Source: Mesaphorura yosii (taxonomy: Eukaryota; Arthropoda; Collembola; Poduromorpha; Tullbergiidae). Taken from it: a stretch of 64,000 nucleotides of DNA. Each line of letters begins with the position of its first letter. Within the stretch, counting starts at the first letter, position 1. The DNA lies in assembly GCA_009869945.1 (NCBI GenBank), contig WIXG01000135.1, positions 1 through 64,000 of the forward strand, read 5' to 3'. Made by a program: the position numbers and the translations under genes. Under the pieces are notes generated by a model. The model worked only from the letters and a program-made list of their open reading frames with translations. It had not been told where the DNA came from and did no database searches. Below are positions 1,873-47,284 of the stretch, piece by piece.

Positions 1873-5410
<3,538 letters not shown>

Positions 5411-14309: not shown

Positions 14310-16536
<2,227 letters not shown>

Positions 16537-19500: not shown

Positions 19501-22500
19501 ATAACGTTCATGACTCATATCCTCCACTGTGCTGCGTGGCTTTTTTAGTCATCGCAATTAACAATCGTTAGAATCATTGGATCAAGATTATCTTGGAAGC
19601 TCAATATGAAATTATGCACCAATACCAAACAGTCAGACTCGCTCGTCTTTTTTGAAGTCTGGCCAGCAGCCATTCCCGAAATATCCTGGATGTATCTTAA
19701 ACTGTGTGAACAATATCATGCGAAACTTCGGCTTCGGAGTGAGAGTTGCTCTGAAGCAATCCATCCTCAAGAAAAATTCTGCTCTGACTTACAACTGAAC
19801 ATCACCTCACATGGATAACGTAGAGCACTGGAGCCTGAGGAAAGATTTTCACGAAGAACAAATTGGTGCTTGTGTTCGTCCTCAACCTGAGCCTGGAGTG
19901 CCAACATTTCACAAGTCTCGACCATCAAGTAGTCCCCACGAGGAGGGCCAAATGCGTGGTAGCTGCTGCGCAGACTTCCATTGGCGTAGAGAAAATAATA
20001 TCTGGGTGTCCATTCTCGTGTTATCCCGACTGGAAACACGGACATCTTATCAATATCAAAAAGTCAACTGCCTGCACTGCACACCTCTCCCGGATTGATG
20101 GGCGAAATCGCGCTTTTTGAAATGCTTTACTCACTTCGTCTATCAAGGCTACCACTATACACCATCCTATCAGATGAATTGCCGCTGTCCGAAATCAACA
20201 AGCCCGACATGTCCGGTACTGATTTTACCTTCTGCTGTTTTGTTTTGTCTGGGTTCGGTGGAAGTCGTGGGCCCCGATTGCCAGCTGCGGGTTTGCTACC
20301 CAATCCCGATCTGTCTTAATCCATCTTCAATTGCGTTTTTAAATATTGCCGTCCAGATTTGCTATCTTCCGATGGTTCCACTGCGTTAATTGTTTCAAGT
20401 TGCTTAACCAAGCTTAAGCACACAAAATCACAGATGACGGAGCCGGAGCAATAACAGAAACTGGAAGCTGCAATAAAGTAAATGCGCACAACGCCAAGCG
20501 CTGAACACAAACATTTGAGTTTCTTCAGTAAAAATTATACCATAAGCGGAATATCTCTAACGCGAAGTCTAGTGGAGCCAAAATAGTCATAAATTTTTAA
20601 AGTAGCAATAATATTGACATTCGTCAGCAGGAACCGTTCCAAATAATTTGTCATCCACTGTGAACTATCCGAGTCCAAGAAAAACACTTACACATTTATA
20701 TGCACCAAGTCATGAAGCTAGGCATAGAAAATACTAGAAGGTTCTGTTACAAGTGTACAAAAATCGAACCATTCGTGTTTGAACTCATTAGCAAGAACAC
20801 AAGTATGAATGTGTTAATATCCATACATTGTAACCCGCATTTCGGTGTGGTGAACTTGTTACAAAAGTTCGGTTCATTACTTCATGCGAGAGCGATGATC
20901 GCCAAGTAACAAAATTATTCCTAGCAAGCTTACATAAATGAAAGCAATTTTTCATTTGCATCGTCACGAGTCTCGGAATGTGGAAAGTTTTCTGGTAGCA
21001 AAATACAAAATAACAATGAGGCTTGAAAATCTTGAATCATGAGGCTTTCTTTCGCCTTTTACACATTTCTCCGCGTCCGCGTGCAGCGTTGTCTACGATA
21101 CCAGCTGTATCAGTACTTGGTACGTGTTCGTACTGCTATCTATAATTCGAAGATGCGGTGGAAAGTTTGAAAGTTTGATCAATAGAGGATTTCAATTCAT
21201 GTGACAAGAAATTAAAGGTTTGTTCTATCCTGTCGCTCTCGTGTCATGTGCTGACAAAGAGACGCGAACAGGTCTGGAATTTCGCATGTTAAGTCAAGAC
21301 AGGCAGCCACATCATGAAAACCAGGAGCATTGGTCAGATTGGCTCTGTTCCTTGCATGGAAATGTATGCCATTGCCATTATTCGAACTTGGGTATTGAAT
21401 GAACAGAAAGGAAGCAAATTTTTTCCTTGATACAAAAACCAATAATCAAATTGACTTGACACAGGACCACTACCACAACATATTTCGCCTTCTTTGCCTC
21501 AAATTCGTGTTCTGAGCAATTAATTCCCAGTATGGCACAGATTTAATCCTGCTAATTGTCAGACATAAAGGCTTGTCGTAATGTTCAAGGGTATTACAAG
21601 CCAGACAAGGAGGTTATCCATTAAAATGACAATGATAATGAAGATTCAAGCTATTCTCTCCTGGGAAAGGTGGCCACGCTGTGTAATGCGCAAATTTCTT
21701 GGTCATGTCATCGCATCGATTACCAAAATATTACAAGGAGACACGACTTTGACTTAGTCCATGGTGTCCATGGTTATGCTTCTGTTTCTATTTCATTCTA
21801 TAGTGTCTCTTCGTCTTCCTTGTGCCATATTGCCTGGCTTCGCATTGATTTTAATCTGTCTTCGTGTTAATGTCAAATATTACCACATGACACGGATACT
21901 CAGGTATACAGGTGTAATCCCTGCCGTGATGACTTCATTACAATCGCACTCATCTATTCAGTGAGTTCTATTTTTAGAGCTTTTGAGTACTATTGCGCAG
22001 TTTTTGTATCTGGCAAATTGCAATTCTTCATTTAGATTGCTTTTTGTGGAAAATTTTTAGCAAGCGAGTAAACAAGGTTAAATACCCTATAGTAGTGTGA
22101 ATTTTCCAAATGAATCTCAACATGATACCGAGGCTTGAGTGCATGCGTCACGATCGTGACTGATTCAACGACTTGTCTCGATTTTCTTAGTCTATTTTCT
22201 CCTGAAACGTTATCCAAGAAAGAAAGATTTGATAATACCAGCCAGTGCATCAATGTCGTTTGCTTTCGCTCGGTTTCGTGCTAACAAACAATAATGACAC
22301 GGCAGTCCAGATTGTAGTGTGGTGGCATGCATCGTTCCGAACTCAGTCGTGTATGCATACTGAAAGGAGAATACATGTAGGCAACGCGGTAACCAGGTAA
22401 CATGATACCCGGTCCCGTGCCCTTTACGCGTTGGTTCTTAATTTGGTTAATAAAAGCAAAAGCGATACAATCGGATTTCAGTAGTGTGCCTCAATCCTAC

Positions 22501-27113: not shown

Positions 27114-27267
27114 CCATAGTAGAACCCTGCTAAGATTGTATGCTAGGAGATTCCCGGAATTTGATTTTAGAATTATGCAATTTTAGACTTAAGTAACCGG
27201 TGCTTGAAAAATTTGGTTTTCTTAGAAATGAAGATTAATGACGTTTTTTTTACTCTGCACTGCTCTA

Positions 27268-27273
27268 AATAAA
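27268..27273 (+). terminator. Poly(A) signal of the carboxypeptidase gene
   Basis: AATAAA lies about 155 bases after the stop, and a second one near 27304. Confidence 0.6.
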
Positions 27274-30200
27274 TTGCATTTAACTGAGCCAGACTCTAAA
27301 GCATAATAAATTGAAATGTGTAAGAAGAACATGCTGGTATTTTCACACGTTAAGTTCTATCTCGGTTTGTGGACTTTGGTCGCCAACGTCAACGGTAATC
27401 CCAGCGTAGCCGGGGTCTCAATCTTGCCGTTGGTCAGGATCATAGAAAGCTGCGAAGTGACTGCCAGTCAGCCCATCGCAATGAGCTAATTGCAGCAGTA
27501 TTGGCCATTTTTCGACCTAAATATTAAGTATTCATACTGTTACGCTTGAGTCCATTGAGCTGAAACTTGACTGCAAATCACAAAATGTACAAATGCCGTT
27601 AATATTTCCGTCTGACTGACAATATAGCTGTGGTACGAGGCTGTGAGACATCGATTTAACAAAGTTCCAGTTTGAGCACACGAAGAGCCATTTACTAAAT
27701 GATAATGCGGTAAAATTACATGTGTGTCCAACTGTTTTCAGGTTTACTCAAAGATAATACTGGACAATAAAGTTATGTACAGGGAATTTCAAGGATAGAC
27801 ATTGACAAGATATTCTAATAACTTTTATTATCAGCTTGTCGCAACTGTGAGATATTTTAAATTACGAACAATTATGAAACTCGAAGTACAAATGCCGCAT
27901 AGCAGGAATTCGATTTTCTTTCCCCAGTGATGCATTTGCAGCTCGGAAAAGTAATAACCATGTATGGTATGAGTTTCCTGATTTCGGCTGCACTTTTCCG
28001 ATCGGGTTGGGAAATCTTCATCAAAAACCTCGTAAATTACGACCCTATAATTGCCAAAGAACCTCGATTTAATGAGTCTGAGAATGCATTTTTGGTAAGG
28101 ATCATTTTAGCAAATTACTACATTAACTGGCTAATTGACTGCACGTGTGGGAAACCCCAGATGGAATTCTTATATTTGTAATGTAATACAAGTAGCGTTG
28201 CACAATACAATTCATCTTTCGTCAGTTTTTATATTTTGTTCTATTAATCATTTCCAATTACTGCCAGATCCTGCTGCATTTAGTTGGGCTGAAAGCCGGA
28301 ACCATCAACCTTTGGCTTATAAATGGGCAAGAGACGCTTCACGGGCTGCGATGTTTGTTTAGCGCTGCCGTCCGAATTGCTGAAAGTCAATTTACTCATT
28401 CGGCATTCAGGGTGCCAGACATGTTATTGCATCAATTAAATTTCCTCCGCAGCAGAATCTTGTGAGAAAATAAATTGTATGACATCCTGGTCATATATTC
28501 AATTCTTAATTACATGGTGGTGCCTAAAATACCGGAAATTAAATTTCTACAAGACTCGTTTGCTGATACTTTTCATTCATTCGTGAGGAGAAGTGCGACC
28601 ATCCGACCTCCTCCAAGAGAACGGCGTATGTATTGTGGCAATTAAAACGTACCACATACAGGATTCTGTGCTCCCAATTGATGGATCGTAAAACAACTGT
28701 TATCAAGCACGGACTGCGAACTAATGCGTCTTAAATTTGATGATGAAACGTTGCTATATTTCTATGTTGTGAAAGCCATGGGAAAATGGATCCGTGGTTC
28801 TAAGAAATTTCGTACATTACATTGTTGCATTGAAGTATTGAAGTGCATGAGGAGGAAACAGATAATGCGATATCCGAAATTAACTGTTCAGTCGTTTATG
28901 GTAAGGTATTGAAGCTTTTACAGTCAGACAGAAATGTCTTAACATGTCTGCCTGATTCATCTTGCATGCCATCGTACAATTCGAGCATTTTCTCATGTCC
29001 CAGGGAAAATACTTTACCATCAGACCGGATAGAATCGTCCCAACAGGAAATGACAACATTTCGCCTGCCGATCTTTCTCGACGTGCAAGCAAGCAGTGCT
29101 GCACTTAGACACCACAAAGAAATTGAGTTATGGATGCCAATGTGCTAGATTGGATTCGACTGCAGTTTTATCTCAATAAAGTTCAAACTGCCGTTGTTGA
29201 ATTTCATTCATTACGCATACGCTGGCTTGGCTTCGTTTCATATTTCTAAAAATTCGTTTCTGTTTTTCTCACAGCTATGCCATTGGGGCTGAATTATGAC
29301 CAGACGGCAACTGCTTTTCAAGAGCTTCTTTGCCATCAAAGTCTCGCCTCGTACAGCAATTATTTTATAACGACCCGACGACGGAACTCTGATGCTGAAA
29401 AATTACACTCTATTAGGTTTTTTATTGCAGTGGACTCTGGACTATCCGCCTTTTCATGGACATTTGTCCCCAGTTTACGTGATGTGATGACGTTCGGCCA
29501 GCCCAATGTCGCTTCTCTGGCGTCATTAGAAACGACTATTGAATGAAACGACTGAATCAGGATTGCTGTGCCTTAACTCTGCAATTATGCACGTCGTGTC
29601 AGTAATGCCAATAATTCTGATATTCAAAATCCCACCGCTTCAACATCTAGGCATTAATAAAACTATTACGGTTCTAAATAGCCACCTTGGTTCATTCGCT
29701 CTATTTTATGCATCTTTCGTTACGAATGTAGCGCAATTCGGACTCAGCGATCTTTTCGGCCCTGAAATAAAGTCACTTAAAGGTAATTGTTGTGCGGCGC
29801 CTTTTTGCTGCAGATATTAGCAATTGGAATTTTCCTTTCCTGACCTGATTCAATGAGAGAAGATTTTTTCCCAGAGTAATCCTTGCTGCCTGCTTACGTT
29901 GGTAATTATGAGATCATGTTCCAGCAATTCGTAAACAAAATAAACTTCTCACGGTATCTGTTTATCAGGGCTGGCCCCCACAGCGGAGTAATTATGCAAG
30001 AGGCTGACAATGAAGTTTTTTCACGTGCGCTCTCTGCGGGCGCTGTACCTTAATCACATACTTTGTCTTGTCCAAAGTTGAAAAACACCAGTCATTAACT
30101 CGCCACTTTGAGGATTTCCCACTCTTCCTGTACCCATCACAAATTATTAGCATCGAAGCTTTCTGGTACGCCACATGTGCAGCAGCTCCGTCTGCGCCTG

Positions 30201-32030
30201 TCTGTCCTCATTCCCTAATTCTTGAAAAATTACCTGAAACATGCATGATTTGAACTTGAAAATTCTCGTACTTCATATTGAGGTTGTTCATATTTAAAAC
30301 TTTTTCTTGAAACATCATCAAAATTGAGAACGTCGACGATACCATTGTAAATTGGCATTCATAATTCCAACATTATAATTATGAAGAAGGAAGCGTTCGA
30401 GACGATAAAAAAAATTTGCTTCCTTTATTCAACGCCGGGCACGAAGCGCGGGGACGAAGCATTGCTTAAAGGGCTGTGAATTAGTCGCGTAAAGTTGCTG
30501 ACCGAACCGGACGCGTGCACACAGAGATGTTGTTAGTACTAAATGTGCAATGTAATGTGACACTGAACTTGCTTGGCGCTTCTTCAGCCCTTAGGCCAGG
30601 TGTAAATACTTAGTAAATATATTTGCGGTTCTTTCTCCGCGTTAATTTACGCCTTCAGAAACTCAGACTGAAGACTCATTTAAGAAAACAGTATGCAAAA
30701 CGAATCTGGCATATGCCTGCGTTTGCTTGGTGAGATTGTCTCTTGCCTCGACGTTCGGCCTCGTTTCTCGTAAGTCCTCGTGAAATGCTTAATGAGAGTT
30801 GAGCAGCCTCGTCTGTCTCTCTCGCAAAGGCTCTCATTGCTTTTCACATTTTTTGCGCATTTAACCAAAAAATTCTCGTGAAGATGTGAGACAAGATGAA
30901 ATATTTGTGTATTTATTATTTATGAGCATTTTAATGGTAATCTATTAATGAGTCTAGTTGGTAGTCTACGTGTCTTCTTCCCACTTTGTCGAAGTTTTTA
31001 CGAAGATGCTGAAACTTCATTCATGGGAACGGAAAAGCCCTACTTAATTTTTTGCAGATGTGTTTTAGGATGAATTCCGTCTTTTAGTCCGTACCCCAAT
31101 TAGATAATTTGCCTCGATTGGTTTCACAACTCTTTAGCAAATGCGAGTGATTGAAAAGCAGAAACTGTCCTTGAGCTTTGTCGACCTAAATTGCCCTGGA
31201 GGACTCAAGCTCCAACTAATAAGATAAAATTTTCCAGCGACTGTGGTTTGCTTAATATCGTATTTTCGCATTATTGAATAAATCATTCGTTCAAACTTCG
31301 ATTTCTTTCCCGAATCCTGAAACTAATGGCCTATGGTCAGACAACCAGTCCCTTTGGACCCCGAATGAACTTCAAGACCATCATGATGTTAGCATATCTC
31401 TTCCTTAGGAAGTCAAGTTTCCGAATCAGAGTAACTCTCGGTGCTGCAGCCATTCATTCATGAGAATATAAATTTGTTCGCTGGTGGTTGGTACATTGCG
31501 GGCTTTACATTACAGCAGTTGGGCACTGTAAATATAAAAAATCCTACTCCTTCACTTGCTTAAGTTGGGTCGCAAAAAGCATCAGAATTTCCTTTGTTTT
31601 TCTCTCACACATAACAACAATGGTAATAATTATTCTATAAGCTTTGCATTTGAGATTATAATAATGTTCTTATCACTTACGACTACTACTGAGACTATAC
31701 ATTCCGGTCGACGAGGTATTGAAGGTACGCGCCAGCATCAGCTGAAGTCAGTTAAAATTCAGGATTTGCGAAGACTGATCGGTTAGTTTGAGAAATTCTC
31801 GATAAGAATACACAACTAAATACTTTGGTGCAGCGAAGCAAGAATTTAGTTGTGAAGAAGGTATAGCTGGAACTTTAGATTTAGAGGTGGAAGGTTCGCT
31901 CGCTTATTTTGGCTTTCAAGAAGCACACAAGAGAGAGAGAGTACGGCTTTCTGCAGTAGAACGTTGAAAAGCCAGAAGGAAGAATTCAAGCCCTTGAACA
32001 ACAAAACAGGGCAGAGAGGACATCGCCGAA
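27274..32030. other. 4.8 kb with no gene recognised
   Basis: Several frames of 60-100 codons exist (for example 27927-28181, 28843-29148 and 29277-29546), but none has recognisable similarity or a chain of in-phase exons. This region precedes the glycogenin-like/PKS gene and probably contains its promoter. Confidence 0.4.
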
Positions 32031-35000
32031 ATGATCGGTATGTTGAATTTCGGTCGATTTCATTGTTATGAATTAAGCATTGAACATGATTGTATCTTTT
32101 CATAACTTGGAATTTGCCTGGCAGGTGAAAACCAATCATGGATAACGATTGCGCTGAATGACGCTTCAGCATGGCAAGCCCTGGTCCTAGCCAAGTCTCT
32201 GAAGAGAAATTTCACCAGTAGGAGATTCACGGTTTTGGTTTCAGACGATGTGTCCCTTCAGATGAGGTGAGTAAGCATTTGCTCTATCATTTCTTTGGAA
32301 GTGTGAAACCACGTAGCCTGTTAACACGTGCGACGCGTGAGCTCGTGGACCAAGTGCGTCTAACAAGGCCAATGCTATCAGGAAACTGCAGCGGTGACAG
32401 CTGACAGTTGACCGTGTCACTTTCCTCTCAACGTTCTCCTTCCTCCGATTGTGCCATTTTAGTGCGTGCTTCACAATCACAAGCACTTGACACTTTCGAC
32501 TTTTCTGGTCGAGACATCTTCCTCGTACTCGCAAGGTCATTTCATTTTCCTCATACTAAATGTCAATTAATTTGGCTCATCATTTGATTTGCATCATTAA
32601 TTAGGCCAGTCTGGTCACTAGCATTTGCTAAGAGGTTGTCAAAACTTCGATTGAACAATGCAGGCCGGTAAGACGACTTTGTCATTTTTCATGCGCATGA
32701 ATATTTGAAGTCACAGTGGAATTCCCACAACATTCAACAATTCACCTTGCTCCAGAAGATTGGCGCAGTTTTGTAATAACGTAATAAACGAGATTCCTCC
32801 GTTTACTTAACATAAAGGCTGGCGGCTCAAATGCGTCAACATTATTACTATTGTGGGAAAGTGAGGCTCCATCAGCTCATCTCGTATGCATTATTTACGT
32901 GCCGGACTTGCTTGCAAAGGTCATCATTGGAATTTCTCACTAAGTTGAATTTCATTATAATCACATCCTTTCTTTGACAGGCGATTGTAGTTAAGTCGCA
33001 ATTCAGTCTGTTGTAAACATCAAGAGCGCAAGAACTGGAATATTATTGAACTTCTGAGAAGGGCCAAGGTCTCCTGCGTGGCTGTGATTCCTACTCTGTT
33101 GACAAATTTTATTGCTTGATGGTTTCGTATTTCCCGTAGTGTTTAAGCATCCGCGAATTTCTAAAATAAGTAAGGTCAGCCAGATTGCACAATCATGATT
33201 TGTGCTAGAATTGTTCCGAACTCTGAAACGACATAAAGCTGCAAATGATTTCATGAACTCAACTAGTCATTAACTAATTTGTCACACGAAGAGGCACAAG
33301 ACAAGATCTGTTTCTTACGGCTGAATTGGTAAAAATGAAAAGACGTACGAGTATCATATTGGAATTGGAAGTCTGCACCATGATCAGCAAGCACTTTCTC
33401 ATTATTGAACACTTCAAGCGCTCCACTACCATCATTTATTTATCGGTCGCATCTTTGTGTCTTAACAGTACGTTATAGCACACGTTGTTCCCCGTTCCGG
33501 CTCGGGTATTGCAGTTTTCGCAAGTAGATAATTTTCATTTATTCCTCCTGAAAAATTCGCAGTAATAAAACACTAATTGTATGACTGCCCAGGCAGCATA
33601 CGCTGTAAATTAGGAAGGCAGCATTCTTCATCCACATACCACTCTATGCAAAAAGGCTGGAGATTACTCATTCACTGTCATAATCTTTAACAAGCCTGAG
33701 AAACTCGTGCACAATGAATGCAGGTGCAGAGAATTGAGAAATCAACGTCTGTCTTGCATGTCGTACCATTGATGAAGCATTTATGTAGTGATTTAGGCGT
33801 CAACTTAAATCGAGGCTATGCCTATTGCACGCACTTTAAGCATTTTAAGTCGTGATCAATATCTGGTGTGACGTGGCATTGCTAATAAGTGCTGTCCCAA
33901 TATTGTTGAAATTGGCACAAGAGGAACAAGTGCAAGAAGAGACATTGTTAACGGGTCGGTGCACGCGCAACTTCCATTACGGTATAAAGCTCATCCAATT
34001 TTGTACAGCAGTCTAATGACTGTGCCAATTATCATTAAGTATCTATCGACTACATCTAAATCTCGTCCAACGTTTCTTTGCCTCATTTCTCACAGTTGTG
34101 TGATGCTTTCCGCAAAAAATCTTAATGTTATCATCACACGAGACGAATGCGAATTTCAAGTGTAAAGCGGATGTGCCCGTAATTGAATGAGTCTGACTTC
34201 CTTTCTTTCTTCCCTTCCTGTGTTGTACCGTTATTCAATGTGTGCCCTCACTTAACTGTCCAATCTAGCACATACCACCATGATTTAGTACAGGTTCACT
34301 AATTAAGTCGTAAATCTCACACAATATGAAGAATACTTCGTCAGAGAAGACACTTTTCGTGTTTGGTTAAGTCGCAATTATAATTTTATTACTGCTCGCT
34401 TAATATCCTGAAAGAACGGAAAATGCCAGGCAAAGATTTCTCACTCGAACCGGATTTCTTTACATCGTGCCGGTACGGTCGCCTTTGCTGCTATCTCAAA
34501 TTAGAAGGCCGGCATTTCCGTCGTAGTTCATATTCTTGATTATACAACGGTTCTCATGTCGCTCACGATGGATTAATTATAACCCACACCGCATCAGCGT
34601 CTCATTAATTCAATTAACCTTCAAGCTGCCGCGGAGCAATTAAACATGACATACATCATTAAGGAGAGGCGAAATAATGACGGAAGACGTACGTTTTGTG
34701 TTTCAGGTATGTCTTGCGTCAGCAATTTGATCTGGTTTCAACAATCGAGTCCTACCATTCCGACCTGAACAAAAATGGCCCAATCTCCGGAGCAATTTCC
34801 AAGAGTTGGTGCTGGAATGTCGGCGTTTGGGATAAATGCGTTTATGTGGACTCAAATTCCATCGTAAGTATTCTGAGTCTTTTGAGTACTCGCGAATGCA
34901 TGTTTCCATCTTTACTCGTATCAATACCTCATGCGATGTTTAGGCTTTGCACAATGTTGACGACTTATTCCACCGTGAGGAATTGTCCGCAGTTCCGTCA

Positions 35001-35583
35001 CCGAAAAATAAAAACCAATTTACAACATCGCTCTTTGTCTACAAGCCGAACACAGACACCTTTGAAGATTTGCTTCAACTGACGGCCAAATTTAAGAATG
35101 GTAATCTTCATTGGCTTGAAATGCCGAAATTCCGTACATTTAGACTAATAATCCGACTAAATTATGGTGACACTTAGCAGAGGATGAATTGTTCAATGTT
35201 CATTATAATGATTGGGCAATTTCTCCTGACAAGCAATTGGATGCAAGCTATGCGTGCTTTACGGACAGGACGCATTTGGCGAACGAGTAAGTCTCTTCAT
35301 TTATTGCTTGTGAATATTAGAATGTGGTCACGATATTAGCTTTGAGAATATTTTCTATCACAGTGCAATTCAGCCAAAATTGGTTCAGTTCATCGATGCT
35401 CCTTGGAAACTTTTATCGAAAGACTTGAAGAATGAGAAGCTTCAGGTAAAACTAAATATTCACTAAATATGGAAGGCCTGTCAAAGATTCTCATCATGTT
35501 CATGTTGATCCTTGTAGCAATATTGTGAAATATGGCATGACGTTTACTCGCAAGATGTGTTGCCCATTGTGTCTGCGCAAAAG
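32031..35583 (+). other. Module: glycogenin-like GT8 domain (exons 1-7), probably non-catalytic
   Basis: Residues 1-240 follow glycogenin from start to end. MIGENQSWITIALNDA matches the MTDQAFVTLTTNDA start, RRFTVLVSDDVSLQMR matches RRLVVLATPQVSDSMR, and LFHREELSAVP matches LFDREELSAAP. QFTTSLFVYKP matches CFNSGVFVYQP, and DVLPIVSAQ matches NVLPLLQQ. Key residues are changed: the metal-binding DAD is DSN (VYVDSNSI), the GGDQG region reads AEDEL, and the metal-ligand His of KVVHFLG is Gln (KLVQFID). No Tyr aligns with the self-glucosylated Tyr195. Keeping intron 7 would add three codons and a stop, giving a 243-residue stand-alone protein. Confidence 0.85.
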
Positions 35584-38500
35584 GTTAATTGTTAATTAAG
35601 ACTTCTAACTTTGAGATGCCGACTCAATTATAAACTTTGTTCGCAAATTTATTAGAAACAGGTTTTAAGAGAATTTCTACTGGAATCTTTGAAGTCCAAC
35701 TCACTCCCTCTCCCAGTAACAGCCCCTGCAAAGAGTCTCGCCGATGCGACGGTCCCCGACCTTCCCATCCGTGACTCGATTGCGATCATCGGAATGAGCT
35801 GCCGATTTCCCGGAGCTGACTGCCCCGAAGAATTTTGGAACGTCCTTGCCGAGTCCACCGAACTCATCCAACCGTTCCCAGCTGATCGCCACCGCAAAGC
35901 GTACATTGCAAAAGATCACGAGAAGCCGGATATCCATGCTGGATTTCTCAAGTGCGCCGTCGATGAATTCGACAACAAATTCTTTGGAATAAGCCCACGA
36001 GAAGCACCATTTATTGACCCTCAACAGCGCATTTTACTCGAAGTCACTTGGGAGAGTCTTGAGAATGCTGGAATCAATCCACAGACGCTCAAGGAGAGTG
36101 ACACTGGTGTCTTCATGGGCATCTGGCAACAAGAATATGACCGTATTCTTCCTGACTATGGAATTACTGCAAATGATTTTCACCATCGCTATCTCGGCAA
36201 TGCTTTCAGTGCCACTGCTTCAAGAATCTCGTACTTCCTGGGTTTGAATGGTCCAAACCTGGCCCTTGAATCTGGATGCTCATCATCGCTCGGAGGACTC
36301 CACCTCGCTTGCGAGTCTCTGCGGAAGGGAGAAATCAGCTTGGCCATTTCATCTGGTGTCAACTTGGTCCTCACTGTCGAAAACCCACTTTCGTCCGACA
36401 GCGAATCGTTTATCATCTCGCCAACGAACCGCTGCCACACTTTCGACGAGGGTGCGGATGGTTTTGTGCGTGCTGAAGGCTGCGCTGTGCTCATTCTCAA
36501 GCGATTTGCGGATGCTTATCGCGACGGAGACAATATTTTGGCTGTGATTCGTGGCTCCGCTCTGAACAACGATGGAGCTGGAACGAGTTTTGGCACGCCA
36601 AATGCCAAATCTCAAGAACGCGTAATTCGTGAAGCGTTGGCGGCCGGCAAAGTGAAGCCCAACGAAGTCAGCTACATCGAAGCTCATGGAACTGGAACCG
36701 CAGGTAAATATTCTTTTTGCCGAAGCCATAACATTCGTATGAAACAATTAACTGAGCACAATTTTGTCTTCTCTGCGTTGCAGTTGGGGATCCGACTGAG
36801 GTTTATGCAATTTCCCAAGTCTACTCGGAAGACAGGAAAGAGCCACTTCTGCTGAGCTCCGTAAAGACCAACATTGGACACGCCGAATCCGCTGCTGGGA
36901 TTGCCGGGGTCGTAAAAGTACTGCTTTGTCTTCAAAAGCAAGCTATTCCACCGCATCTTGGCCTCAAGACGCTCAACCCAAGAATTGACTTGGAATCAAT
37001 TCCAGCTGTGATTCCGATGGAAGTCACTCCGTGGAAAAGCCCTGTGAAAATCGCTGGTGTCAGCTCATTTAGTATGAGTGGGACGAACGTGCATATGTTG
37101 ATTCAGGAGTCGCCGGTGCTGTCTGAAGTTAACAACAACAAAGTTGGTGTAATGCCAGGTGGTGGCATACCGAAACAACAAATTGTGACATTCTCAACCA
37201 AATCGGAGGAAGCACTCACTGACTTGTGCAGAATCATGTCCGAATATCTGCAGGAAAATCCATCGCTTCAATTGGAGGACATCGCTTACATTGCAAACAC
37301 GGGACGCGCGCATTTGCCGTTCCGTATCGCTGCGGTCGCGAAAGACACCACTCAGTTGGCCTCTGTCCTGCAGAAACGTGCCTTCACGACGGGCCGAATT
37401 CCAGCCCAGAAACATAAGATTGGATTCTTGTTCACTGGCCAAGGATCACAATACCAGGGCATGGCGAAGGCACTTTACGCAGTTTCGCCGGTATTCCGAG
37501 CAGCACTCGACCAATGCGAATCCTTGTTTCAAGACCAGATTGGCTACTCGCTCCAGGAAGTCATTTGGAATGAAAAGAAATTACTTGAACAAACAATTTA
37601 CTGTCAACCGGCGCTCTTTTGCATTCAGTATGCACTTGTTCAACTCTGGAAGCATTTTGGCATTCAGCCCGACTTTGTACTTGGGCATTCAGTGGGCGAA
37701 TTCGGCGCTGCGGTGGCTGCTGGCGTCGTTGACCTCGAGGATGCAATGAAACTCGTCGTGGAAAGAAGTCGACTCGTAAACAGCCTGAAAGCTGGAAGCA
37801 TGATGGCTCTCAAGACATCGCTAAACACTGTAACAACGCTTATTTCGAAATTCCAGCAAACTCAGGCTAACAAGGCTCAGCGGTGGGTTGATTTGGCTGC
37901 AATCAATTCACCCGAAGGTAAGGAAATGTTTATGTCAATCCTGAGTATCCCAAGCCAACAAAGTTGAACGAAGTTTAATTTGGGAACAAAGTGACACAAA
38001 AAGTGTAACAAACAAATTATCGCGAGTTATCCTATCCACCATGTGCGTTGAGACCACCTCGTCCTAACTTCTTGTAATTGTAGGCACCAGTTTCACGCTT
38101 AAATTTGTCCTCAGCAGCTCTTGGATTTTCATTGTCCAGGAGCTTATGCAGAATGGTGATTTTTGCGATTTCTCGCTTCAGAAATATCTTCCAATTTTCA
38201 GCACAGAAGTGAACGATTACAGCGGACACCGAAGTGTTTGAACAGCAACAGGGACAAGGACAAACAATGTTGAATTTGTTTTGAATTGAAAAAACAATCC
38301 ATGAATTTAATTACAACAAAGAACCAAATTAATCAGCCAATCAGCGCATCACAAGTTTCATTAATCCCATGACTCCCAGCATGATAATTCATTTTTATTT
38401 CAATTCCAGAGGTTGTCGTGTCCAGCACACCTGAGACAATGGCCCTCTTTGCCGAGTTTTGTGCAAACAGCAATGTCAAAACCCAGTCGATTCCTGCATC

Positions 38501-41500
38501 GCATGCATTCCACTCGCGTGACATGACACCCGTCATGGAGAAGTTTGGGCAGATCGCTGCTTCAATCACTTACCAGGAACCTAATTGCACGTACATTTCG
38601 GGCACATTGGCAAAAATTATGGATACTGACGACTTCAGTTCAGAATACTGGCAACAGCACTTGAGAGACACCGTGCGCTTTGCTGATGCGATCCAAGTCA
38701 TGTGGACAGATTGCAAAATTATGGTGGAAATTGGAGCTCAACCGATCTTGCTTGGCCTGGCAATGGCCAACACAGGAGATGTGAGTGGTGGGTTTTATTG
38801 TCCCTCCCTCCGCAAGACTGAGGATGACTGGCAGGCCATTCTCAATACGCTTGGCAAGCTCTACATCGCTGGAGTGGACATTGACTGGAAGAACGCATTT
38901 GGAATCAGGAAAAAGAAGGTGATGCTGCCCAATTATCCGTTCCAGAGACAAAAGTACTGGTACAAGGACGAGGAAGGCACTGGGAACAGTTCCACTGTCA
39001 GCTTGAGCACAAGACTTCTGCACCCGCTTCTTGGGCGTGAACTTCCCTCAGCTGTCCCGGATTCCATCTTCAGCCACTGCCTGAAACTCAAGGAGTTGTC
39101 TTACATCGAAGACCACAAAGTTGCAGACCGTATCATTATTCCTGCCACTGCATTCTTGGAAACAGTCCTGGCTGCTGGACGTGAAGTCCTTCAATGTGGC
39201 GCTGTGCCCGTGCCACTTTGCGTTGAGCAACTGACTATCGAAGCTGCACTGGAGTTGGTTGGGCCAACTCAAGTGCAGACTATCGTTCAAACTGTAAAGG
39301 AAGAGGAAGAGGTCAAGTACAACGTCAGCATTCACCGACAGGTCGCTGCGGATACAGCGGACAAGTGGAAGCGACATGCTCAAGGTGTATTTGTTCCTTG
39401 CATAAGACTACCAGTCACCGAGACTATCGAAATTGATCAAGTCAAGACAAGACTTCAGGTGCGGGACGCGATTGACACCGCGTACCAGAAGATTGCAGAG
39501 GCTGGAATTGCATTTGGTCCGCGATTTCAAAGTATCGCTGCAGCATGGACGGGACCAATGGAGGTTAGTTTTCACGTTTCGTTTATTTGCCCGAACTTGG
39601 AATTTTATGAAGTTAAAACTACTTTAACATATGTTTTAAGTTTTAGTTTAAAGTACTACCAATATTAAGTTTTAACGAGAATTCAAACGTTTTTCATGAA
39701 TAACTAACGGATGGAGGCACATGGATGAAAAAGCGGTAAAACATCATGTAACAGGGTAGCAGTAAGATAAATTAGTTTTTACAAGTTAAAGCGCTTTGCA
39801 TTCAACTTTTGACAAATCAAATCCAAGTTTGGACAATCTGGAACTGGAATTCCTTTCCATTTGTAAACAATTCTAAGTCGCTTTCCTGAATATTTGTGCA
39901 ACAAATATTTCGTATCATTAAGTGATTCAGTTGGCCAAATCTTCTTCCAGTTGGTCATTGATGAGAACAAATTCCATTTTCTTGACTCCTCCTTGATAGT
40001 TGACCTTGATTTTATCGAGTTGTAGATAAAATAAAGCTTATATTGTCACCTTATATAGCTTCTGGTTTCTGAAATTCAGGTTCTGACACAAGTCAATCTT
40101 CCAGAAGGCTCGGACAAGTACATCTGTCATCCGATTGTTCTGGACGCTATGATCCAGACATTTGCCTTCAAGACTTTGCTGAACTCGAATGATCCAGAAA
40201 TCACAAAGGAGCTCCAGCTCCCGCTGAGTGTGCGCAAATTCCTTTGGCTTTCACGACTCCCAACAAACACACTCTACGTTCATACAAAATGGGACCCGCA
40301 TGTCTCCGGTGGCGGAGAAACCAGCGTGATTCTGTACAGCGAGGAAGGCGAGCAGCTGGCTATCATGGAGGGCATCGAATTGATTCGCACTTCAGTGGAT
40401 TTGTTCCTCCGAATTCTGAACTCGGAGACGATCAACCTACCAGATTTCTACAAAGATTACTGGCGACTTCAAATGGGCATCACGACTTCCCGAATTGATG
40501 TGGAATCGCTCGCCAAAGTCTCGAAGGAATCTCACTACACTGCAGAATGCTACGCAAATGACACGTATCGTGATAAGCACGGTGGCACTGAAGAGGTCAT
40601 GTCCAAAATGGTCACAATGTACATTCTGAAGTGTGTCCGAGAGTGCGGCTGGTTTTGGGAAGTTGGCAAACCAATTTCACAACAAGAATGGGCTGAATAC
40701 AGCACAGCCAAATTACCGATGACCAAAATTGTCAATGCTTGGGTCGAGTTGTTGATTCAAGACAGCTTTCTCACAAAGGATGAGATTGCTCTTAAACCGC
40801 TTCCGACTGTGGACGAATGTGATAAAATTCTGCAAGACTTGTCCGAGGCTGTGAAGAAGATTCATGATGGCGACGACCCCGCCGTGCTGTTCGTCAAGCG
40901 ATGTGGACAGCATTTGACACAGATCTGCCAAGGGAAAATCAATTCACTAGCTGTGCTCTTCCCCGAAGACAGCAACGAAGTCGGTGCAGCTCGATTCTAT
41001 AACGACTCGGAATGGTATAAAGTTTTCAACGTGATGTCTGCTGCTGTGATTGCTGATATCGTGACCCCGCTCTCGGGCAAGGGACATGGTGTAATGCGGG
41101 TACTTGAAGTTGGTGCGGGAACCGGCGCCACCACAAACGAAGTGCTTGCCAAGTTTTCGGAGTTGGAAATTTATCACCAGTACGACTACACTGACATTTC
41201 GCCGGTCTTCTTGGCCGAAGCCGGCAAGAGATTCTCTTCTCCATCGCTCACCTGCAAAGTGCTGAATATCGAAGAAGATCCACTCAGCCAGGGCTACGTT
41301 CCGAGCTCGTATGACATGGTTTTGGGAACTATGGTCATACACGCCGTGAAGGACATGACACAAACGATGATGCATCTTCGCTCCATCCTGAAGGACGGAG
41401 GCTTGGTAGTGATCACCGACATGTTCGAGACCATGCCGCATCTGACCCTGACGTTTGGTCTGCTTGAAGTAAGTAAAGTTATGGGATGCAAACATTTACC

Positions 41501-44500
41501 TTGACTTTAAGCCTGAATTGAAGTAAGTTTGTAAGCAAGTTGAAGTGAGAGATTTAATACGTGAGAGTTTTATATTTGTCCGGGTTCTCGGCGTAACGCC
41601 TTCGTTGGACTGTTCTTGCAGTTTCCCTGTACCTGAGTGTATGTTTTTGTGCGTGCTTCTGTGCCGCCCTCAGATCAGGCATCGTCTTCCCACAACCTTG
41701 ATAATTACAATTGAAACACTTCATACTTTTTATGAGGTATTTGTCGTGCTGCCCAGTCCCGAAAGGTTTTTGAGCACTCATTTTGAAACTGAAGTACTGA
41801 AGAGACCGAAAAAATCTGGAGTGATATCTAAAGATTAGATAATTTCTCTGGTACTAGTTATTACAATGAAAACCCTGATATAGTCGACAAATTTAATTTA
41901 TTTACTTTGGTTTTGTTAGGGTTGGTGGAGGTATGAAGACAAGCGCACTCGAGGTCCAATTGCAAGCGAAGCCAGATGGCTCGAGATCCTCCACGCAACT
42001 GGATTTGAGCACGCTCAAACTATTCCCCTGCACAACGGTATTTCTGGCACATTGGTTGCCCGTGCCAGACCATTCAGAATCCCCGCTACGATTGCGACGA
42101 GGACCACTTGGCTTGTATTTGACGACCGATCCCCTCTGGCAACCACATTGGCCTCGCGGTTGGTGGAAGCAAACAGAAACGTGCTCCGAATTTACTCTGA
42201 TGGCCAAAATGCGGAGCTGCAAGAAACCAATCCAAATGAATTCTTGATCAATACAAAGCAGTCTTCGCATGTCAAGTCCATATTTGAAAGCGTTGTTGGA
42301 AAAGGCATCGAAGGAATTTTGTACTTCATTCCCGATTTGTACTCTGATGTCCTGCCAATCGACAAGATTCAAGAGGACATTGTTCGTAGTGTGCTCGCCA
42401 CGAGCCAGACCATCATGGAATTTGGTCAGTACATGAAACCGAAGCCACGCATTCTTGAGATTCTGAAGGGAATCCACTACATTGGCGATGCACGAGCTGG
42501 AAATCCAAACGCTGGCACTGCGTGGGGTCTGCTCAAGACATTCAGCAATGAAAATCCTGACTTGCCCATCACGTTGCTGGATTTGGACCAGAATGATTCT
42601 GAGGTGACTGGGCATGCCCTGGAAGAAGTGGCATCGCTCTTGTGGCTCAGGGATGGAGAATCATTCGTCGCCCTCCGAGAAGGTGGCAAGAAATACGTGG
42701 CTCGATTCAACTACCTCGACAAATTTGGAGCCCCATTGACACTTCCAAACACCGATCGTTACCAGTTCATTAACCCACCAAGTGGCTCATTTGCTGACAT
42801 CCAATTTGGTCCAGCTAATCGCATGGAAGTGGGACCTAATCAAATGGAAGTCTCAGTGCAGGCTTGCGCTCTGAACTTCAAGGATTTGTTTGTCATCATG
42901 AAGCCAGAAGGATTCGTGCTGCCTGCGCATCAAAAGGCGAACGTTGGTATCGACATCAGTGGAATCGTGACAGCAATCGGACCCGGAGTTGAGAAATTCA
43001 AAGTTGGTGATGAAATTTACGGATGCTCGATGGAAACTGGTCTGGCGTCGCACGTGGTAATAGACGACTGTGTGGCTATGAAGAAACCGGTGAACTGGAC
43101 GTTCGCCGGTGCAGCCACAATGCCGACTGTATTCCTTACGGCCTACTACTCTTTGGTTTACATTGGAAAAATTAAGAAGGATGACCGAGTTCTCATCCAT
43201 GTTGCTTCCGGTGGTGTCGGACTTGCGGCCATTCAAATCTGCAGATACTTTGGCACAGAAATTTACGCCACAGCGGGAAGCAACCGCAAACGAGACTACT
43301 TGAGGGGCATGGGCCTTCCTTACGTCTACCATTCAAGAAATACAAGCTATGGCGAAGACATAAAGCGGGATACCAATGGCAAAGGTGTCACACTGGTCCT
43401 CAACTCACTAACTGGCCCAAACTTCAAAGAGACAACGCTCGAAAACTGCACTCGAGGAGCGAGATTCATCGAGATTGCCAAGATTAACATTTGGCAGCCG
43501 GAAGAAGTGAAGGCTTTGCGCCCAGATGTTGAGTACACAATCGTTGACTTGGGTGAACTGCTTTGTGAGCCCGGCGGACATCAGGCGAATAAACTTCTGA
43601 AAACCATGAACGAATCGTTTGACACGGGAGTGTTCCAAATGCTACCGCACACCGTGTTCGCACTGGAACAAGCCAGGGAAGCCTTCCATCATTTCCAAGA
43701 GGCAAAGCACATTGGAAAGATTGTCATCACAATGCCAAAGCCGGTTGTCTCAAACCAGGGCAAGCTTCAGCTGGTGCACCAGGTGTTCAACAAATTCTCC
43801 ACGTACTTGGTCACTGGAGGTCTTGGTGGTCTTGGCATGGAAGTCGCAAGATGGATGCTTGGATCGGGCGCAGAACACATTGTCCTCTGCGGCCGCAATC
43901 CGCCTGATGCTAAGTCTCAGGAGTTGATTGACAACTGGAACGGGAAGAATTCTCCAGATGGAGGGAAGATGAGAGTGTGGGTCTTCCAGACGGATGTCGG
44001 GGAATACGATCAGTGCGTATCACTGTTGCAGAAAGTTAAAGAAATTGGCGTGCCGCCCCTTCGCGGTATCTTCCATGCTGCCGGTGTGCTTTCGGATGCA
44101 ACCATCCCGAATCAGACTTGGGAAAAATTCAACATGGTGCTTCGACCTAAAGTATACGGTGGGTGGTACTTGCATTCGCTCACACAAGGTTACGAGTTGG
44201 ACATGTTCGTCATGTTTTCGTCCATGGCGTGTATTCATGGAATGATGGGACAAGGCAATCACTCTGCGGCCAATCGGTACCTGGACTCTTTGGCTCATTA
44301 CCGTCTGGCGAAGGGATTGCATGCCTGCACCGTCAACTGGGGACCATGGTATGCCTGCTAGACGTAGACATTGCTTTACTTTAAACTGATGCAATTAAAT
44401 GGTAATAATCTTAATAACGAAAATGCCTATGTCAGGTCGGACGTTGGAGCAGCTGCAAGCATAAAAGTTGGTCTGGAAGGATCGTTGGGTCTGAAAGCTT

Positions 44501-46221
44501 TCAGCCCAGCCGAAGGAATTGCTGCACTCGAACAAGCCCTTCGATACAACGTCTCACAATGCGCGGCTATTCAGGTCAGCGATTGGAACATCATGAAGCA
44601 ATTCTACGCTGGAAGCAAATACACAAGCGAAATCAAGACCGACAAGAGTAGTACCGACGATCACTCGAAAGAGTACCAGAAATTGATGGACGAGGTCAAA
44701 GCAGCTGCGCCAGAAGATCGTGCGGACAAAATCTCGCACTTCTTGGAGACTCTGCTGAGGCAGACTTTGCGCCTTCCTGATTCGGAAGCGATTGACCCGG
44801 ACCAGAACTTTAGCGAACTTGGAGTGGATTCCCTGATGGCAATGGAAATGAGGAACCGCCTGCAAGGAATGCTGGGAGACAAGACTCTGACGATAAGCGC
44901 GCTTCAGGAGAACCGAACCCTTCGAAGTTTGTCGAACCATCTCGCTAATCTGATGAATGCTGAGCCCTCTGTCTACGTCCCAATGGATGTCCAATTGAAG
45001 GAAGATTCTGTCCTTCCGGAAGACATTACGGCCGCTGCAGTTGGGCCGACTCCGCCGTCGCAATTCAAGGCAGTTCTTCTTACTGGCGCCACTGGTCATC
45101 TTGGACTTCACATCCTCGTTGAACTTTGCAACTACAAGGCGAATCCAAATCTGAAGGTTTATTGCATGATTCGCGGAAAGACGGCCGAGGAGGCGGAAGA
45201 CAGACTCGTGAAGCAACTCACCAAGTATGATCTGATGGGAACGTTTGACATGAACAAAGTTCAAGTCTTGCCTGGTGACCTGACATCAGAGACGCTTGGG
45301 TTTGGAGACAAGTACGAAGCCTTGGCTGCTGAAATTGATGGTATCATTCACTGTGCGATCAAATCGAACCATTTGGAAGGGTACAGCGAGGGAAGTAAGA
45401 ATGACATGAGATCGCATAACGTGGTCGGCACTATGAATGTAATCCGATTCGCCGCATCTCAGAAAACGAAACCGATTCTGTATGCATCATCGCTTCTGGC
45501 CGTCACAAAAGTAAATGACAACGGCATCCTCCATGAAGACTATCCAGATGAAGAGGACATTGGACTTCACATCAAGAATGGGTACACATTGACCAAATTC
45601 GTATGCGAGAAACTGTTTTCTCAAGCAGAAGCCCGAGGAATTCCATCTAAAGTCTTGCGATATGCAAGCATATTTGGCCACAGTGTAACTGGATATTTGC
45701 CAACAGAGAACAATCACTCCTGGTTCTTCCTCGTCTCGTGTCTGCGAGCGCGTGTATTCCCGAAATTCGACCACAACGGGTTGCCAATCATGGCTGCCGA
45801 CATTGCGGCTCAGATCACTGTCAACCTTTTTTTGTCAGACTCGGCTGAACATGGCGTATACAATTTGACCAGCGCATCCGACGCCACGGAAGAGGACATT
45901 CAGCAAACCGTGTCTGAATTTGGATTTACTGAGCAGAGATACCTGCCATTCTCCGAATGGCGAGACGAAGTCTTCAAGGACTCTGAGAACAACCTGCTAC
46001 AGCATCTTACGTTCTTGTACGAAGATGATTCCAACTCTGCAGCACCTCGTTATCTGAGTTTCCACCCACTAGCCAGGACGAAGCTCGATCACTTGAAACT
46101 CGACAATATCAGCGAGAAGCTGAGGCGGAACCATCCGAACATCGAAGCGCTACAGATTCCACCTCGGATTATACTGCACCGACACTTAAGTCGTCACTTC
46201 AATATGAAACCAACCAAATAG
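32031..46221 (+). CDS. Glycogenin-like GT8 / type I polyketide synthase / thioester reductase fusion
   Basis: One giant multidomain enzyme predicted to build a methylated, reduced polyketide and release it reductively. Thirteen exons join with every phase matching: 32031-32037, 32125-32266, 34707-34863, 34944-35100, 35178-35286, 35364-35445, 35518-35583, 35662-36703, 36784-37917, 38410-39563, 40080-41468, 41920-44348 and 44436-46221. They total 9654 nt, or 3217 residues. Domain order: GT8 (1-225), KS (277-696), AT (800-1115), DH (1168-1455), MT (core at 1692), ER (about 2100-2420), KR (2441-2620), ACP (Ser2755), reductase (2835-3150). The GT8-to-PKS junction is a phase-0 intron (35584-35661). 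The PKS exons have no ATG before the KS, the first being inside its GMSCRF motif, so a separate PKS start is hard to find. AATAAA at 46549 ends the unit. Whether the PKS came by gene transfer or belongs to the animal FAS-like PKS group is undecided. Confidence 0.88.
32267..34706 (+). other. 2.4 kb intron 2 of the GT8/PKS gene
   Basis: By far the largest intron of this gene, with GTGAGT donor and TTTCAG acceptor. It lies in the glycogenin-like part and holds no recognised gene. It may carry regulatory elements or an alternative promoter, though no alternative first exon is evident. Confidence 0.6.
35770..38850 (+). other. Module: ketosynthase and acyltransferase
   Basis: The KS carries the full catalytic triad: Cys446 in ESGCSSSL (36277-36279), His582 in EAHGTGT and His620 in KTNIGHAES. 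It starts with IAIIGMSCRFPG, the usual type I PKS opening. The AT has GQGSQ and nucleophile Ser890 in GHSVG. Its specificity loop reads HAFH (997-1000), which in bacterial modular PKSs marks malonyl-CoA selection, against YASH for methylmalonyl-CoA. The AT is split by an intron of 492 bases (37918-38409), which is consistent with a resident, spliced eukaryotic gene and not bacterial contamination. Confidence 0.88.
37918..38409 (+). other. Intron 9 of the GT8/PKS gene with an antisense open frame
   Basis: The 492-base intron has GTAAGG and CCAG splice sites. The minus strand is open at 38032-38229, reading protein-like segments such as DKFKRETGAYNYKKLGRGG. There is no ATG at its start and I do not recognise it. 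Confidence 0.5.
39009..41980 (+). other. Module: dehydratase and C-methyltransferase
   Basis: The DH has His1201 in DHKVADRIIIP, which differs from the common HxxxGxxxxP by D for G. Its partner is Asp1372 in HPIVLDAMIQ. Both catalytic residues are kept, so activity is plausible. The methyltransferase shows the SAM-binding LEVGAGTGA (1692-1700), a YTDISP strand, a VLGTMVIHA block and GWWRYEDKRT. These motifs look intact, unlike the decayed pseudo-MT of animal fatty acid synthase. Alpha-methylation from S-adenosylmethionine would fit a malonyl-selective AT. Confidence 0.8.
39564..40079 (+). other. Intron 10 of the GT8/PKS gene with an antisense open frame
   Basis: The 516-base intron has GTTAGT and TTCAG splice sites. 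The minus strand is open at 39779-39970 (for example LLHKYSGKRLRIVYKWKG). A second antisense frame just upstream also looks protein-like. Neither is recognised; a decayed insertion is possible. Confidence 0.4.
42770..44490 (+). other. Module: enoylreductase and ketoreductase
   Basis: The ER is a medium-chain dehydrogenase fold with NADPH site ASGGVGLAAIQ (GGVG 2244-2247). The KR has its nucleotide site TGGLGGLG (2445-2452) and the catalytic Ser in MFSSMA (about 2580). The position of the usual catalytic Tyr (GQ.NYAAAN) is His2594 here: GQGNHSAANRYLD, codon CAC at 44260-44262. The downstream Asn is kept. Whether this KR still reduces is uncertain. Confidence 0.8.
44700..46221 (+). other. Module: acyl carrier protein and terminal thioester reductase
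   Basis: The ACP has the phosphopantetheine Ser2755 in LGVDSLMAMEM (codon TCC at 44830-44832). It is followed by an extended SDR reductase domain in place of a thioesterase. The domain has TGATGHLG (2839-2846), the Ser of YASSLLAV, and Tyr3006/Lys3010 of YTLTK. Such R domains in PKS, NRPS and carboxylic acid reductases release the chain as an aldehyde or, after a second reduction, an alcohol. No thioesterase is seen. Confidence 0.85.
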
Positions 46222-46548
46222 GTCGTTGAGGGGTCATCGTTGGAGTCATGTAACGAAGGCTAATCGGTTGACGCAGAGGAAAAGTTGTCGAGGGGTACCA
46301 ATTACGATTTAAGATCGCTTTAATGAGTTTTGAACTCTTTTGACTCAAACATTTGAAATTTGAAATTGGCAATTCGAAAGAATGGACTCAATTTAAAACA
46401 GGTTATTTGTCTAGGTTTAATCATTAATTTAGTTATGTTAAGAAAATGGTGGTGGGTCAGTTCGTCTATTTTTATTATTCCAATTCCTAAATATCAAGAT
46501 TAAGATAATGGTATCCAAATGCTAATATTGATATTATTCATGTACGGT

Positions 46549-46554
46549 AATAAA
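46549..46554 (+). terminator. Poly(A) signal of the GT8/PKS gene
   Basis: AATAAA lies about 330 bases after the stop, within an A-rich run. Confidence 0.5.
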
Positions 46555-47284
46555 AAAAAATGTCAAAAATACATTCCTGCTGGTCTTGGTAATTCTCATT
46601 CTTTTCAATTCCATGCCAAATGTGTTCCCGGTTCGTCCAAAGGCTCGTAAACTCCAGCCGCCGGAATCTGGCGTCCGGTTCTGCCGCTTCTTATTGCCTC
46701 ATCGTCTCCGCCATCTATGATGGTTTTAACATTGTACCTGACAAAATCGATTAATGCTCGTCCAACCGGTAGCAGCAGCCAGAGTACATTGAGCTCTTCG
46801 ATATACGTGTACTAAAGCATAGTGTATACCCGTAAGGGATTTTATGTACATGCAATGTAAAGTAAAAGCTCCTACGTGTTGCACTTGACTCAGCTCTGGC
46901 TTGATAGCGTCTTTTTTCATCGAATGCAATGACATTGAACCAGTACAGTACAGTCAGTAGTGCATTCGAAGCGGCGGCGGCTTCACTTCTTGACCGACGG
47001 TAATTCATTTCATAATTAATAAATTCAGACGACTCATTATTAGATTAATTAACATTAAGCTTGACTAAAAGCTAGGTACTCGCCTGAGCGAGCTGCATAG
47101 TAAACAGCAATTCAGTTCAGTTGTTCAGTATTCTACAGCCACCAAATCGGTCTCTGATTCCAGTTAAACTTCGGTAAGAATTATTAAACCCAAATAAATC
47201 CAACCCTAATGTTGGATTGTCTCCGTTTTGTATCGAATTAATCACTAAACTCACTAATTTGACCGTTTTATAGACTACGTCAAG
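46555..47284. other. Intergenic and 5' UTR of the hnRNP U-like gene
   Basis: No other gene is seen. A likely 5' UTR acceptor (TTTTATAG at about 47273) lies just before the ATG at 47285, suggesting an upstream non-coding exon. Confidence 0.4.

Follow-up and report, generated by a model that had tools for sequence, protein, structure and literature searches.

A putative in-frame fusion of a glycogenin-like domain to a bacterial-type reducing polyketide synthase in an animal genome

Does this stretch of animal DNA encode, in a single reading frame, a glycogenin-like glycosyltransferase (GT8) domain and a complete polyketide synthase (PKS), and what may have become of the two parts? An earlier note on the locus had proposed such a protein, and we followed it up in the window, that is, the whole analysed stretch of 64,000 nucleotides. 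The answer which we regard as probable is a fusion gene, the first 240 residues of which would be derived from an animal glycogenin and form a module that does not prime, and the other 2977 residues of which would make up a highly reducing PKS of bacterial type that methylates its chain and releases it by reduction.

Gene model and glycogenin-like half

The exon model of the earlier note could be reproduced exactly, with 13 exons, 12 GT-AG introns and 3218 codons including the stop. The exons span positions 32031–46221 and sum up to 9654 nt, which corresponds to 3217 codons plus one terminal stop (Table 1). GT-AG ends are found at 12 of 12 introns and the phases agree at the exon junctions, the one between exons 7 and 8 being in phase 0. 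Introns 1 and 3–7 measure 72–87 nt. Exons 5 and 8 possess in-frame tandem acceptors, at 35178 or 35181 and at 35656 or 35662, respectively, which could yield isoforms 1 or 2 residues apart.

Table 1. Features of the predicted fusion gene and its surroundings (positions in the window)
Feature	Position	Strand	Remarks	Basis
Exons 1–7	32031-32037, 32125-32266, 34707-34863, 34944-35100, 35178-35286, 35364-35445, 35518-35583	+		
Exons 8–13	35662-36703, 36784-37917, 38410-39563, 40080-41468, 41920-44348, 44436-46221	+		
GT8 part, exons 1–7	32031..35583	+	residues 1–240; exons of 7, 142, 157, 157, 109, 82, 66 nt	
Exon 1	32031..32037	+	start codon, 7 coding nt, ends in codon 3	
Intron 2	32267..34706	+	2440 nt; interrupts codon 50 after its second position	
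Intron 7	35584..35661	+	78 nt, phase 0, predicted fusion junction	
Linker GT8 to KS	35662..35772	+	37 residues	
KS	35773..36965	+	C446, H582, H620 present; split by intron 8	Pfam
AT	37425..38876	+	GHSVGE and HAFH; split by intron 9	Pfam
DH	39021..40394	+	H1201 and D1372; split by intron 10	Pfam
C-methyltransferase (MT)	41046..42009	+	SAM motif and H1771; split by intron 11	Pfam
ER	42832..43728	+		Pfam
KR	43798..44442	+	His2594; split by intron 12	Pfam
ACP	44743..44943	+	phosphopantetheine Ser2755	Pfam
Terminal thioester reductase (R)	45079..45816	+	NAD_binding_4; YxxxK 3006–3010	Pfam
AATAAA	46549..46554	+	lone AATAAA/ATTAAA from the stop codon to 46700	

Residues 5–235 match glycogenin-1 with a best E of 8.3e-33 (phmmer against PDB sequences), and 83 of these 231 residues (36%) are identical. 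The match ends at residue 235, equivalent to about residue 260 of glycogenin. Altogether, the matches at E up to 1 comprise 20 distinct PDB sequences, namely 17 of glycogenin-1, two of glycogenin-2 and one Skp1 galactosyltransferase; the latter, as the sole non-glycogenin match, reaches 33 bits, versus 117 bits for glycogenin-1. Identity to glycogenin-1 in the alignment is lower in exons 5–7 (9/36, 7/28 and 5/17), and Pfam gave no match for the N-terminal 279 residues even at E 10. The search for a second glycogenin-like gene in the 64-kb window yielded nothing above chance-level matches. When 86 bacterial PKS loci were compared with the GT8 domain, none matched at E up to 1e-4; no relative turned up in viral contigs, for which GT8, R and a portion of KS served as queries, and a tblastn search of plasmids with GT8 found matches in three Sinorhizobium records alone, at 21–22% identity.

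The reading frame of the GT8 exons looks constrained, judged by a codon score trained on three neighbouring ORFs and by a stop-codon estimate. In frame, these exons score +0.055 per codon, whereas the two remaining forward frames give -0.21 and -0.32; the PKS scores +0.134 in frame. For 500 non-coding pieces of 720 nt the mean was -0.277 and the maximum -0.127, but this control leans low since the pieces were drawn from the sequence behind the background table. The comparison between frames is therefore the better control, the 500 pieces not being an independent set. Furthermore, all 240 GT8 codons are free of stops, for which the chance would be (61/64)^240, about 1e-5, if codons were unconstrained and base frequencies equal.

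Nine glycogenin positions are presumed here to bind UDP-glucose, Mn or the acceptor: K86, D102, D104, N133, D160, D163, Y195, H212 and K218. Two of them are kept (K86, D102), whereas D104 is replaced by N, N133 by T, D160 by K, D163 by E, Y195 by R, H212 by Q and K218 by A. The presumed metal ligands, DxD and His, are thus incomplete, with D102 kept and D104 and H212 exchanged. The equivalent of Tyr195 is R185, situated in a weakly aligned stretch. Over a wider set of 23 compared glycogenin positions six are kept (N12, K86, D102, N168, P219 and W220) and, therefore, some ligand contacts may persist. The C-terminal glycogen-synthase-binding region is absent, as linker and KS come next after the end of the homology at residue 235. 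Because the active-site positions are mostly changed and this tail is absent, the GT8 part is probably a pseudo-glycosyltransferase. A full-length glycogenin-like GT8 domain had been claimed before; the glycogenin homology and the seven exons stand, but what is present is the catalytic-domain part alone, with two of nine catalytic positions kept. In glycogenin, Tyr195 is the site of autoglucosylation (PMC5203857).

The intron positions bear on the origin of this half. In human GYG1 the variant c.143+3G>C, located in intron 2, makes exon 2 skip and gives p.(Asp3Glufs4) (PMC13258228, PMC7463053), from which it follows, as far as the available parts of these two reports go, that exon 1 ends in codon 3 and that c.143 is the last nucleotide of exon 2. 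In the gene studied here exon 2 ends at coding nt 149, the second position of codon 50; in an ungapped alignment residue 50 stands opposite residue 48, the residue of human c.143. Judged from that variant, the exon 2/3 boundary is the same as in human GYG1 in position and phase. The exon 1/2 boundary lies in codon 3 as in GYG1, a comparison at the level of the codon, as the source does not give the human phase. The location of human D102 in exon 3 and of D163 in exon 5, as far as given in the available parts of the sources, agrees with the exons found here. Intron positions in common with GYG1 speak for an origin from an animal glycogenin gene and not from a piece of a transferred PKS. Such a gene, with old intron positions, is thus the probable ancestor of the N-terminus.

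The polyketide synthase half

The domains assigned before to the six large exons were all matched by Pfam: residues 278–3083 show KS-AT-DH-MT-ER-KR-ACP-R in that order, with KS, AT, DH, ER, KR and ACP all on one chain. Catalytic residues are present in KS, AT, DH, MT, ACP and the reductase (Tyr-Lys). The exception is the catalytic Tyr of KR, the position of which is occupied by His2594 (window position 44260). Since His also occurs there in 18 of the 173 aligned bacterial pieces (Tyr in 151), it may be a working variant.

Among the best 60 of 74 KS matches in PDB sequences, CurL scores 413 bits versus 246 for LovB; the top match is 7zma with 596 bits, a figure that sums two stretches. The best match of MT is CurJ, and the nearest solved structure of R by sequence is MxaA. 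The genome-contig search with a KS-AT alignment gave at least 80 loci; when the KS-AT protein was used by itself, 11 stretches matched, and no relative was among them. In the 86 bacterial loci the best KS matches are 48–51% identical, and the R domain was matched in one of the 86; for none of these loci did the matches establish the full domain order of the present protein. Over KS-AT the bacterial relatives, among them cyanobacterial, Chloroflexi and proteobacterial ones, are 35–45% identical. As the relatives among the matches listed reach just these values, no recent bacterial donor was found. The PKS half is most likely a highly reducing, methylating type I PKS of bacterial type, and its acquisition from bacteria is likely.

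One gene or two, and the alternatives

That a single gene encodes an in-frame glycogenin-PKS fusion is supported by the sequence tests, which also bear out the claim that the phase-0 intron at 35584–35661 joins the glycogenin-like exons in frame to the PKS exons. In the frame of exon 8 a stop lies at 35653 and the first ATG at 35794 (residue 285), with no other in-frame ATG between the two; by the time this ATG is reached, the Pfam KS match has already run for 7 residues. Most likely, exon 8, where KS begins, depends on an exon further upstream, a part which the glycogenin exons can play in the correct phase. Intron 7, like introns 1 and 3–6, appears ordinary when compared to the EF1-gamma introns of 77, 83, 70 and 106 nt, each of which was chosen by eye among several options. 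Nevertheless, the locus might consist of two neighbouring genes, namely a truncated glycogenin paralogue and then a separate PKS, which would start with its own exon within the glycogenin introns or at ATG 35794. Intron 2 is roomy enough for a promoter and a start exon, the gene model rests on sequence, and on read-through past exon 7 a stop follows 3 codons on. However, exon 8 begins without an ATG, the linker is in frame and the junction phase fits, a start at 35794 would lose the first 7 residues of the KS match, and from 35007 to 40030 the + strand is free of further AATAAA/ATTAAA, one of which follows the PKS stop at 46549. This motif alone proves little, as copies are also found within introns and exons of the gene (at 32783, 33564, 34639, 35007, 40030, 43588 and 44394). 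Taken together, we hold two separate genes for rather unlikely. An operon in which the exon 8 acceptors serve for trans-splicing is disfavoured, too, as it would leave the KS domain without a preceding in-frame ATG.

If the fusion is real, the GT8 domain might still retain some transferase activity, acting on the polyketide, an ACP-bound chain or its own protein. Asn can sometimes replace Asp as metal ligand, K86 and D102 are kept and the frame looks constrained. However, all seven other positions named above differ, and Asp102His by itself is enough to abolish autoglucosylation in human GYG1 (PMC5203857, in its available part), which makes an active enzyme unlikely. That the domain couples carbohydrate stores to polyketide synthesis, by a non-catalytic binding of UDP-sugar or glycogen which tethers the PKS to glycogen particles or switches it on by sugar supply, is an idea to which we give slightly less weight still. 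As to the other half, a few arthropod members of the animal FAS-like PKSs (AFPKs) end in an R domain (PMC10764717, in its available part), and the PKS might be placed in this animal FAS/AFPK clade. But the best 60 of 74 KS matches include neither a fatty acid synthase nor EcPKS, over ER-KR mycocerosic acid synthase (MAS) scores 312 bits against 201 for animal FAS, the match of which is a shorter stretch, and 152 for EcPKS1, and the protein contains an MT domain complete with its His. Such a placement thus appears very improbable. A misassembly, or bacterial contamination attached to animal sequence, finally, would fit the fact that there is a single assembly and that G+C amounts to 44–50% in 2-kb windows over the PKS versus 37–46% elsewhere. 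Five GT-AG introns lie within the PKS, though, eukaryotic-type genes flank both sides and no repeat of at least 25 nt was found in 31000–47000, so that this explanation can hardly be upheld.

The neighbouring ORFs belong to eukaryotic-type families, namely alanyl-tRNA synthetase, Galactosyl_T, SAP, EF1G, GDA1/CD39 and EF-hands (Pfam); others contain a PH domain and a kinase domain, the protein kinase being Akt-like by eye. These families, together with the glycogenin intron positions, suggest that the DNA is animal. Rfam gave nothing at gathering thresholds across the window. Ten ORFs between 27.5 and 32.2 kb had no Pfam match at E up to 0.01, and in these ten no coding exon was recognised over 27200–32000, the stretch of about 5 kb that precedes the fusion gene. 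On the - strand the ORF 19770–20063, with the stretch WTPRYYFLYANGS, resembles by eye the PH-domain ORF 15774–16346; it has no Pfam match and is possibly a degenerate copy of the latter, or the likeness is due to chance.

For the single fusion gene that we prefer, the following course can be imagined. A duplicated glycogenin gene would have lost its 3' end, and the shortened gene would have captured a downstream PKS gene via the phase-0 intron. The GT8 domain would no longer prime glycogen and may, as a module at the N-terminus of the dimeric PKS, aid folding, dimerisation or localisation; this structural role is proposed by analogy, because glycogenin and type I PKSs are both dimers. The PKS would work iteratively, extending a malonyl-derived chain, adding alpha-methyl branches and reducing each unit, and the chain would be released reductively as aldehyde or alcohol.

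Comparison with known systems

We know of no earlier glycogenin-PKS fusion, and the statement that no such enzyme has been described agrees with the open-access literature searched, in which neither this fusion nor one of an N-terminal glycosyltransferase to a polyketide synthase was found. In the same literature glycogenin was not found together with Folsomia, and no title names a glycogenin-fatty acid synthase fusion. In the available part of PMC3188802 glycogenin appears in the reference list only, and PMC10531068 and PMC8460440, as far as available, provide background on other soil animals. The remark that animal PKSs are rare was too strong. According to the accessible parts of two reports, PKSs occur in all animal phyla investigated save sponges and ctenophores, though with very few in arthropods (PMC10764717), and the springtail Folsomia candida has 30 type I PKS clusters (PMC5490193).

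If true, this would be the first known glycogenin-PKS fusion. A foreign-type megasynthase would have been captured by an old animal gene that gives it a start codon, introns and presumably a promoter, which hints at how an acquired PKS that lacks a promoter may become an animal gene. It would also be an instance, open to testing, of a dead glycosyltransferase put to new use as a module of a PKS.

With glycogenin-1 (GYG1) the N-terminal half shares 36% identity, the codon of the exon 1/2 boundary and the place and phase of the exon 2/3 boundary, the human side being taken from partly available reports. In contrast to it, the residues for UDP-glucose, Mn and acceptor named above are mostly changed, Tyr195 and the tail are missing, and the chain runs on into a PKS. 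The horizontally acquired PKSs of Folsomia candida are likewise bacterial-type enzymes in an arthropod genome, but the available text of PMC5490193 and PMC10764717 describes no glycogenin fusion for them. AFPKs such as EcPKS1 and EcPKS2 are single-chain animal megasynthases, too, a few arthropod ones with the R domains mentioned above; unlike these, KS and ER-KR of the present protein score higher with bacterial PKSs among PDB sequences, and the MT His is present. Bacterial type I PKS modules (CurL, CurJ, MxaA and mycocerosic acid synthase) are alike in domain types and catalytic residues, whereas the gene described here carries five spliceosomal introns in this part and a GT8 N-terminus.
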